Shown piece after piece: positions 10,720 through 22,279 of a DNA stretch of 35,668 nt (the stretch's first letter is position 1; each line of letters opens with the position of its first letter). Origin of the DNA: Anaeromyxobacter sp. RBG_16_69_14 (GTDB lineage: Bacteria; Myxococcota; Myxococcia; Myxococcales; Anaeromyxobacteraceae). Where the stretch lies: contig MEMX01000122.1 of the NCBI GenBank assembly GCA_001768075.1, positions 107,537 to 143,204 on the forward strand. Reading direction: 5' to 3'. Both the position numbers and the translations under genes were made by a program. The notes under the pieces were generated by a model. The model was not told the origin of the DNA, made no database searches, and saw only the letters and a list, made by a program, of their open reading frames with translations.

Positions 10720-10935
10720 TTACTCCTCGCCCGCGCGGACGCCGTCCAGTCGGTCGCCGGGCTGCGCCACGCGGTCCAGATCCCGGCGCAACTCGGCGAT
10801 CTCCGCCTTCAGTTCGGCGCGGGTGGCGCGCAGCTCCGCGCGCACGTCCTCGAACGTGTAGCGGATCTCCTCCGCCGAGAGCCCCAGCACCCGCCGCTCC
10901 AGCGCGGTGAGAGCGCGCGCCAGGAGGCGCCTCAC
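10720..10935 (-). CDS. Small coiled-coil hypothetical protein, translationally coupled to the peroxiredoxin
   Basis: GTG start overlaps the peroxiredoxin TGA (GTGA); VRRLLARALTALERRVLGLSAEEIRYTFEDVRAELRATRAELKAEIAELRRDLDRV, heptad-rich. Confidence 0.55.
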   Translation of the reverse strand: MRRLLARALTALERRVLGLSAEEIRYTFEDVRAELRATRAELKAEIAELRRDLDRVAQPGDRLDGVRAGEE

Positions 10936-11426
10936 GAGCCCGCCGGGTGAATGGGGCAGGCGCTGATCGCCGCCGACGGATCGACCGCGGCGCTGCCGGT
11001 GACGACCTCCTTCACGATGCCGTCCTCGCCCACGACGATGTTCGCGCGGCTCGCCAGGCCGATCACCGGCATGAGCCCGGCGTACTGCCTCGCGACCTTT
11101 CCGCCCGGATCCGACAAGAGCGGGAACGGCGCCTTGGTCTCCGCCTTGAACCGCTTCAACGTGTCCTGGTCGTCCACCGAGATGCCCACCACCTGCCCAC
11201 CCTTCTCCTCGACGCTGGCGTACCGGTCCCGGTACGCTTTGGTCTGTCTCGTTCAACCCGACGTGAATGCCTTTGGAAAGAAGAACAGGATCGCCGGTCC
11301 CTTCTCCAGCATCGTGGAGAGGGTTACCTGGCGCCCCTCGGTGTCGTCGAGCGTGAAGTCGGGCGCCTTGTCGCCGACCTTGATGGACGACGCGCCGAGT
11401 AGCGCAGCGAGCAGCGGGATGGGCAT
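10932..11426 (-). CDS. Peroxiredoxin (AhpC/TSA, BCP-like), candidate selenoprotein with Sec at an in-frame TGA (11253-11255)
   Basis: Single frame: [117 protein letters not shown]...; the TGA is in frame with both ATG 11426 and the downstream ORF; PxxxTxxC motif reads PKAFTSG(TGA); GAGGAGG upstream of the ATG. Confidence 0.82.
11218..11237 (-). promoter_or_regulatory. Candidate bacterial SECIS hairpin downstream of the Sec TGA
   Basis: RNA-sense GCGUACCGGGACCGGUACGC: perfect complementarity (e.g. 7-bp stem with GGGACC loop), starting 15 nt after the UGA. Confidence 0.6.
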
Positions 11427-11492: not shown

Positions 11493-11903
11493 TCAGGCCC
11501 GCAGGCGCTCGTAGCGTGCCGCGAGCACCGCCAGGTCGTCCCGGTGCCACAGGCCCACCTGGTCAGGAAGCTCCCCCATCGGACGCAGTGAGAAGCCGGT
11601 CACCGGGGGTGCCGGGGCGGGCTCGCCGCCGAGCGCTCCCGCCACCACCAGTCCGAGGTGCCAGGCGTCGCCAACCCGCTGGGGGCGCGCTCCGACGAGA
11701 ACCGCGTCCTCGAGGTCAAGCCCCACCTGCTCCTTGATCGCGCGCACGGCCACCTCCGACGGCGACTCGCCATCACCCAGTGCGGCGCAGGGCAACCACC
11801 AGCGCCCGAGGGCGGCCTGACCGAAGAACCCGCCCAGCACCTCCGCCACGAGCAGACGGCGGGCCTCGAGCAGGATCCCGAGCGCGTCGACACGGACGAT
11901 CAC
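11493..11903 (-). CDS. NUDIX-like protein with degenerate Nudix box
   Basis: RWWLPCAALGDGESPSEVAVRAIKEQVGLDLEDAVLVGARP aligns with the GX5EX7REUXEEXGU region but as A..E..RAIKEQVGL. Confidence 0.65.
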   Translation of the reverse strand: MIVRVDALGILLEARRLLVAEVLGGFFGQAALGRWWLPCAALGDGESPSEVAVRAIKEQVGLDLEDAVLVGARPQRVGDAWHLGLVVAGALGGEPAPAPPVTGFSLRPMGELPDQVGLWHRDDLAVLAARYERLRA

Positions 11904-20402: not shown

Positions 20403-22011
20403 CTACTGCGGGAATGACTTCGGCGGCACGTCCTCGTAACCGGTGCCGTCGAGCGCCTGGAGGAACGCGACGAGGGGCGCGACGTCTGCGGGGGAGAGAT
20501 CGACCTCCGCCATGGCCGGATCGAGCCACGGGTTCGCCTCGATGGCCACGTAGCGCATCACCGCGTCGTCGAGGTCGGGTGAGGAGCCGTCGTGCATGTA
20601 CGGCGCGTGCTTCGACACCTCGCGCAGGGTAGGCGTCTTGAAGGCGCCGATGTCGGCAGGGTCGAGCGTCACCGCGTACCGCCCCGGATCCGCGAAGCCA
20701 TGCTCGACCATCTGCCCTGACAGCGGGGCGTAGCCGATGCCGATGTTGTGGAAGCGCGCGTCGGTGAAGGTGGGCCCGAGGTGACAGGCGTTGCAGCGGC
20801 CGCGCCCGAAGAAGATCTCGTGCCCCTCACGCGCCTCGGGCGAGAGCGCAGCGTCGTCACCGGCGTCGAAGCGATCGAAGGCGGAGTCGCCGGAGAGGCG
20901 CGTCGTCTCGTACGCTGCGATGGCGTCGGCGACGCGGTCGATGTCGAGCAGCGCGTCGCCGTACACCTCCCGGAAGGCGCGCCCATAGCCCGCGATGCCC
21001 GAGAGCGTGCGCACCGCGTTCTCGTGCGTGTTCCCCATTTCGACGGGGTTCGCGATGGGTCCCTTCACCTGCTCGGTCAGCGAGCTGGCGCGGCCGTCCC
21101 AGAAGTAGTCGTCGAAGACGAAGAACGCCACGTTCACTATTGGTGGCGCCTTGCGCGCGCCCTCCTGGCCGCCGATGCCCCTCGAGCGGGGTCTCGGCTC
21201 GGAGAAGGCGTGCTCGGGGCGGTGGCAGGTGGCGCAGGAGACGGTGTGGGACTGGCGAGCGAACGGGAGCGGAGATCCGCGGCGCTCGAAAAGGCGGCGC
21301 ACGCGTGAATACCTGACGAGCAGACTGCCCTCACGGGGCGTCTCGGCCGGCGCCGCGTCGGAGAAATGGCGCTCGCTTGTTCGCCCTTGGAGGCCGGTTA
21401 CTATCAGTGAACTATTCAGCTGGCCGCGGCGGCGGGGAGGCGTCGAGAAACCGGTCCGATCTGCCCCGCTCGAACCGAACGCGCGGGGTGACCGTGTCGT
21501 AGGATGGCGGTGAGATGCGCTCATTCAGTCGCGCGCTGCTCGCCCTCGCCTTCGTCACGCCGAGCGTGACATCGTGCCGTTGCGCCTGGACCCGCGACGA
21601 GGCTCCCGCTCGCGATGTCCCGTGGGAGAGAGAGACCCCAGCCGTGCCCCTGCCCGTGCCGCCGCTCGGCACGGGGATCGACATCGCCCGGTCGACGGTG
21701 AAGCTGACGCCCGAGAAGGTCCGGCTCGGGCGGTGGCTCTTCTTCGACGGGCGCCTGTCGAAGGACGGCACCGTCTCCTGCGCCACCTGCCACCGCCCGA
21801 GCCGGACCTTCTCGGGCGTCAGCTTCACCGTCGACCGGGCGATGTCGATCCCCGTGCCGAGCGGCGGCACGGGCAGGGGCACGGCTGGGGTCTCTCTCTC
21901 CCACGGGACATCGCGAGCGGGAGCCTCGTCGCGGGTCCAGGCGCAACGGCACGATGTCACGCTCGGCGTGACGAAGGCGAGGGCGAGCAGCGCGCGACTG
22001 AATGAGCGCAT
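20403..22011 (-). pseudogene. MauG/cytochrome-c peroxidase family di-heme protein, split by an inverted duplication
   Basis: C-terminal part (20403-~21260) has [14 protein letters not shown]...APPIVNVAFFVFDDYFWDGRASSLTEQ...GRCNACHLGPTFTDARFHNIGIG...; N-terminal part MRSFSRALL...[11 protein letters not shown] lies at 22011 leftward; separated by the palindrome. Confidence 0.85.
21247..21737 (+). repeat. Left arm of a 491-bp inverted repeat
   Basis: Exact reverse complement of 21789-22279 as judged by identical ORF translations and boundary inspection; symmetric about 21763. Confidence 0.93.
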
Positions 22012-22279
22012 CTCACCGCCATCCTACGACACGGTCACCCCGCGCGTTCGGTTCGAGCGGGGCAGATCGGACCGGTTTCTCGACGCCTCCCCGCCGCCGC
22101 GGCCAGCTGAATAGTTCACTGATAGTAACCGGCCTCCAAGGGCGAACAAGCGAGCGCCATTTCTCCGACGCGGCGCCGGCCGAGACGCCCCGTGAGGGCA
22201 GTCTGCTCGTCAGGTATTCACGCGTGCGCCGCCTTTTCGAGCGCCGCGGATCTCCGCTCCCGTTCGCTCGCCAGTCCCA
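21789..22279 (-). repeat. Right arm of a 491-bp inverted repeat
   Basis: See left arm; 51-bp unique spacer 21738-21788. Confidence 0.93.

Follow-up and report, generated by a model that had tools for sequence, protein, structure and literature searches.

Selenocysteine (Sec)-containing peroxiredoxin (Prx), characterized by the motif TxxU, has been known since 2001, when Soehling et al. first described it in Eubacterium acidaminophilum (as cited in PMC13188914). In the Sargasso Sea sequence set analyzed in 2005, Sec-peroxiredoxins were the second most common selenoprotein family (PMC1088965). Anaeromyxobacter dehalogenans, which belongs to the same bacterial family as the host of the gene reported here, was listed by Zhang et al. 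(2006, PMC1794560) with 11 selenoproteins, three of them peroxiredoxins, and the peroxiredoxin selenoproteins of this organism were also used in PMC1914089. A literature search for myxobacterial Sec-peroxiredoxins returned no further papers.

This study was concerned with a peroxiredoxin gene in a window of 35,668 nucleotides (the whole stretch of DNA that was analyzed) from Anaeromyxobacter sp. RBG_16_69_14. The host assembly has 5.6 Mb in 157 contigs, is 92% complete and carries the window in contig 122. The gene agrees with the E. acidaminophilum Sec-peroxiredoxin, as far as the latter is described in the article that cites it, in its AhpC/TSA family, its PxxxTxxU motif, the use of Sec for the peroxidatic Cys and a bacterial SECIS (bSECIS) hairpin just past the UGA. 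A. dehalogenans represents a different genus-level lineage from the host, and the window gene is a new sequence. The orthologue in family genome G019, which was taken as A. dehalogenans 2CP-C, is about 64% identical and has TGA at codon 58 and the same hairpin. Because of the 2001 and 2006 papers and this orthologue, the window gene is a member of a known family already reported from Anaeromyxobacter, and the general picture of selenoproteins is unchanged. It might make small additions, namely an invariant C-terminal Cys as a candidate resolving residue and repeated Sec/Cys switching in a family that keeps selA.

The gene forms one frame of 165 codons, beginning with the ATG at 11426-11424, and its sole internal stop is the TGA at codon 58, in the context PKAFTSG(TGA), which occupies the last position of the motif (Table 1). 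The terminal TGA is a normal stop, and TAG or TAA is found there in several orthologues. The first-pass annotation of this DNA was right in the coordinates, the frame and the PxxxTxxC-type motif it gave, and in reading the product as one continuous peroxiredoxin with TGA as codon 58. It had also expected standard annotation to split the gene or call it a pseudogene, and the open reading frame (ORF) caller indeed returned only fragments at this locus, such as an 86-aa ORF at 10932-11192. Judged from sequence, this is almost certainly a functional selenoprotein gene whose product would be a peroxiredoxin with Sec58, and it represents a clean, well-supported case of UGA recoding of the kind that callers lacking Sec models would break up.

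Table 1. Positions of the peroxiredoxin gene, its recoding signals and its upstream neighbor in the window.
Feature	Position	Strand	Remarks
Putative Sec-peroxiredoxin gene (AhpC/TSA, PrxQ/Bcp/AhpE-like)	10932..11426	-	164 residues including Sec58; terminated by TGA at 10934-10932
In-frame UGA, read as Sec58 (peroxidatic residue, PxxxTxxU)	11253..11255	-	Assigned by homologue comparison
Bacterial SECIS hairpin, GCGUACCG-GGAC-CGGUACGC	11218..11237	-	8 bp; loop 23 nt past the UGA
Cys157, candidate resolving cysteine	10956..10958	-	Sole other Cys/Sec in the protein; role inferred
NUDIX-domain protein, upstream neighbor	11493..11903	-	Context only

Among named organisms, the protein has its closest relatives in Anaeromyxobacter, at 55-68% identity. 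Homologues were compared in a family group of 24 genomes (Anaeromyxobacteraceae), the host included. Among 23 family homologues codon 58 is TGA in 16, the window gene included, and TGC in seven, with no TAA, TAG or frameshift. Seven Myxococcaceae-like homologues (group f4), which belong to the same order, use TGC or TGT, and the alignment with Cys homologues that the first-pass annotation had proposed places these codons at exactly codon 58. After this codon the frame stays open in all of the homologues for about 100-127 codons before a stop is reached. A chance nonsense mutation is ruled out, because the relatives have either TGA or a Cys codon at this position and the frame is intact. Random nonsense or frameshift decay in relatives, considered by the first-pass annotation as the opposing outcome, was looked for and none was seen. 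The pN/pS ratios (NG86) against relatives were below 1, yet up to about 0.9 within the family downstream of the TGA, and they add little since synonymous change is saturated and GC-constrained. TGA at codon 58 is shared by more distant homologues from Acidobacteriota, several of them in tandem copies. Five Acidobacteriota contigs (L008, L010, L012, L013 and L014) contain two nearby peroxiredoxin genes with TGA at each peroxidatic codon.

A hairpin beginning 15 nt past the UGA had been drawn in the first-pass annotation. This hairpin is real and its placement was right, with exactly 15 nt between the UGA and GCGUACCG, but the stem extends one pair beyond the 7 drawn. A 54-nt stretch folds into the 8-bp stem and a GGAC tetraloop at -17.2 kcal/mol (z -2.0). 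The bSECIS model specifies an upper stem of 4-16 bp, an apical loop of 3-9 nt with G in the first two loop positions, a UGA-to-loop distance of 16-37 nt and a minimum free energy (MFE) of -7.5 kcal/mol or lower (PMC13188914). The window hairpin lies within all of these published constraints (8 bp, a 4-nt loop GGAC with GG, 23 nt and -14.1 kcal/mol). A scan of the window against RNA families at gathering thresholds gave no match. The hairpin alone is weak evidence and was rejected in a stand-alone role, because an equally good stem (at least 8 bp, with the same spacing and loop-G rule) is available from about 4.6% of all start points in the window, which is GC-rich. The stretch past the terminal TGA also folds strongly, and folding energy alone has no discriminating power.

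The hairpin is placed beyond chance by its conservation across relatives. An 8-bp stem with a GGAC or GGAU loop at the same distance is present in 15 of the 16 TGA forms, and the sixteenth (L118) has a 7-bp stem and an 8-nt loop. Mean hairpin energy in the same 24-nt stretch is -13.3 kcal/mol in the Sec forms versus -5.1 kcal/mol in the Cys forms. RNA folding, also proposed at first pass as a check, showed that the TGA forms keep the hairpin and that most Cys forms have lost it, although one Myxococcaceae Cys form (L124) retains a 7-bp stem. Arg66 is encoded by CGG in 15 of the 16 Sec forms and mostly by CGC in the Cys forms. Over 13 distinct sequences 99% of the cells were paired, compared to 12-39% in slid controls. 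At pair 20/31, three of these 13 sequences (L113, L122 and L123) have U-A in place of A-U, a double change that also alters amino acids 65 and 69. The covariation is supportive, short of overwhelming, because it is two-sided at one pair only and occurs in related genomes.

The genes for Sec synthesis and insertion were searched in the host, as the first-pass annotation had advised; selA, selB and selD are present, but selC (tRNA-Sec) was not found in the assembly. The selA gene, divided into two pieces that share a frame, exceeds the cut-off of 267.9 bits, with 535.4 bits summed, and selA is over the cut-off in 24/24 family genomes. The N- and C-terminal parts of selB flank a run of N (C115:1151-3065), each part singly scoring below the curated cut-off. 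The selD gene scores 398.6 bits against a cut-off of 125. For selC, the best Rfam matches in the 92%-complete host assembly were tRNA-Ser and other tRNAs, and the tRNA-Sec of a same-genus genome used as query gave no match in this assembly. tRNA-Sec was found in 20 of the 23 other family genomes (74-83 bits); the three genomes that lack it have a completeness of 66-80%. ARAGORN identified tRNA-SeC with anticodon UCA in all 15 family genomes examined. To see whether the missing selC falls at a contig break, its neighbor in the same-genus genome G001, a gene with many paralogues that is chemoreceptor-like by ORF reading, was also searched in the host, and it matched eight paralogues instead of a single locus. 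We infer that the absence of selC is an assembly gap.

At least six further host genes have an in-frame TGA in a redox protein: three Prx-like genes, SelD and two formate dehydrogenase-like genes, with the position of the TGA placed for the three Prx-like genes and SelD. In the host selD (L091, about 1531) the in-frame TGA is early in the gene, in HGAG(U)ACKIRP, corresponding to a Sec-containing SelD, and strong hairpins are found downstream. Many SelD proteins have such an in-frame TGA. The Prx-like genes all have the TGA at the redox position; they are a PrxQ-like gene with TSGU (L158, about 1773) and two peroxiredoxin-like genes with UPYC (L159, about 1624) and TPVU (L160, about 1654). The host genome thus resembles an ordinary anaeromyxobacterial genome rich in selenoproteins.

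The draft assembly is fragmented and has N gaps, and selC was not found in it, which could raise the suspicion of a pseudogene or a sequencing error, with the TGA being a nonsense mutation or a miscalled TGC. However, TGA is present at the same codon in 15 other family genomes, some of them single-contig, the frame is intact to the stop in all of them, and the hairpin is retained in the TGA forms. This conservation of the codon 58 TGA, the frame and the hairpin refutes such an explanation, which we give practically no weight. The missing selC could likewise be held in favor of selenium-independent decoding of UGA58, with Cys or Trp inserted there or with mere read-through, and Cys is the alternative residue in relatives. 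Such decoding is very improbable, given that selA, selB and selD are present in the host and selA throughout the family, that TGA is also the true stop of the same gene, and that the SECIS hairpin would be purposeless.

The 86-aa ORF returned by the ORF caller would fit a pair of short selenium-independent products, with translation stopping at the UGA and restarting at the internal GTG (11192), but the cut would fall in the active-site helix of the predicted fold (residues 56-67) and the Cys orthologues are single continuous proteins, so this arrangement is hardly conceivable. A genuine selenoprotein, as the first-pass annotation had proposed, is instead supported by the host selA, selB and selD, by the TGA and Cys homologues and by the hairpin conserved in the TGA forms.

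With the TGA read as a residue, the protein matches Pfam AhpC-TSA (PF00578) over residues 17-140 (E=1.6e-36), and the predicted fold is that of a Prx with a mean pLDDT of 90.7. The predicted model has residue 58 near the start of helix 56-67, in its first turn, where the peroxidatic residue is usually found. By sequence and predicted fold, the closest solved structures are the Bcp/PrxQ and AhpE peroxiredoxins (PDB 5epf, 3drn, 1xxu and 2cx3), which have the fold predicted here (TM-score normalized to the query of 0.72-0.82, identity 28-35%). These structures are of Cys enzymes, whereas the window protein has a Sec codon instead. Also, at the PrxQ resolving position, five residues past the peroxidatic residue, the window protein has no Cys. 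In the clade of the window gene, the conserved C-terminal Cys157 is the only other redox residue. It is invariant in 30 of 30 myxobacterial homologues, whether they are Sec or Cys forms, is also found in both Acidobacteriota homologues aligned (n=2), and sits in a conserved DPxxAxxxC stretch close to the C-terminus. Since Cys157 is the only other redox residue and is invariant, and the PrxQ position has no Cys, a resolving role for Cys157 is most likely on these comparisons.

In the host, SelA and SelD would make Sec on tRNA-Sec, and SelB carrying the Sec-tRNA would bind the hairpin past the UGA and insert Sec at codon 58. This machinery was seen as genes, and the action of SelB at UGA58 is proposed by analogy with the established bacterial pathway. 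The product would be an enzyme of the PrxQ/Bcp/AhpE type, in which Sec58 would attack peroxide to give a selenenic acid. Cys157 would probably resolve the selenenic acid as a selenenylsulfide, and a thioredoxin-like partner may then reduce the selenenylsulfide.

A tree of 41 proteins requires four Sec/Cys changes, three of which are forced by well-supported branches. At least two Cys groups are nested among the Sec forms, all in genomes keeping selA. Some Sec-to-Cys changes within the family are likely from this pattern; the direction of the changes is not settled because many forks of the tree are open. Seven Cys58 members (L102-L104, L109-L111 and L115) are without the hairpin while their genomes keep selA, and these are possible Sec-to-Cys reversals. 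One Cys clade, containing G009, is presumably the one labeled Fw109-5-like. The combined proposal that Cys took the place of Sec one or more times in organisms keeping the Sec machinery (in the Fw109-5-like clade and in another genus-level clade), and that Cys157 is a C-terminal resolving Cys forming a Sec58-Cys157 selenenylsulfide, is given slightly less than an even chance. The 2006 survey counted five Cys-to-Sec and zero Sec-to-Cys changes in peroxiredoxins (PMC1794560), so a Sec-to-Cys change, if true, would be in a direction without a recorded peroxiredoxin case in that survey. The 16 Sec and seven Cys orthologues in one family, all with selA, offer a natural comparison for the benefit of selenium to a peroxiredoxin, and the same set is convenient for following the loss of a SECIS element after Cys has replaced Sec.

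Several other features of the window were observed. Two perfectly matching arms of 491 bp (21247-21737 and 21789-22279), separated by a spacer of 51 bp, form an inverted repeat at 21247-22279. It overlies a gene for a di-haem cytochrome c peroxidase/MauG (20403-21524, minus strand), which has a truncated duplicate on the plus strand. A genuine palindrome seems less likely here than a fold-back artefact of the assembly. On the minus strand at 10720-10935 there is a small coiled-coil-like ORF of 71 codons with no Pfam match. It begins with a GTG that shares bases with the stop codon of the peroxiredoxin gene (GTGA), and coupling of the two genes is only a guess. Lastly, the NUDIX gene upstream of the peroxiredoxin gene is also found within about 1 kb of it in 12 relatives.
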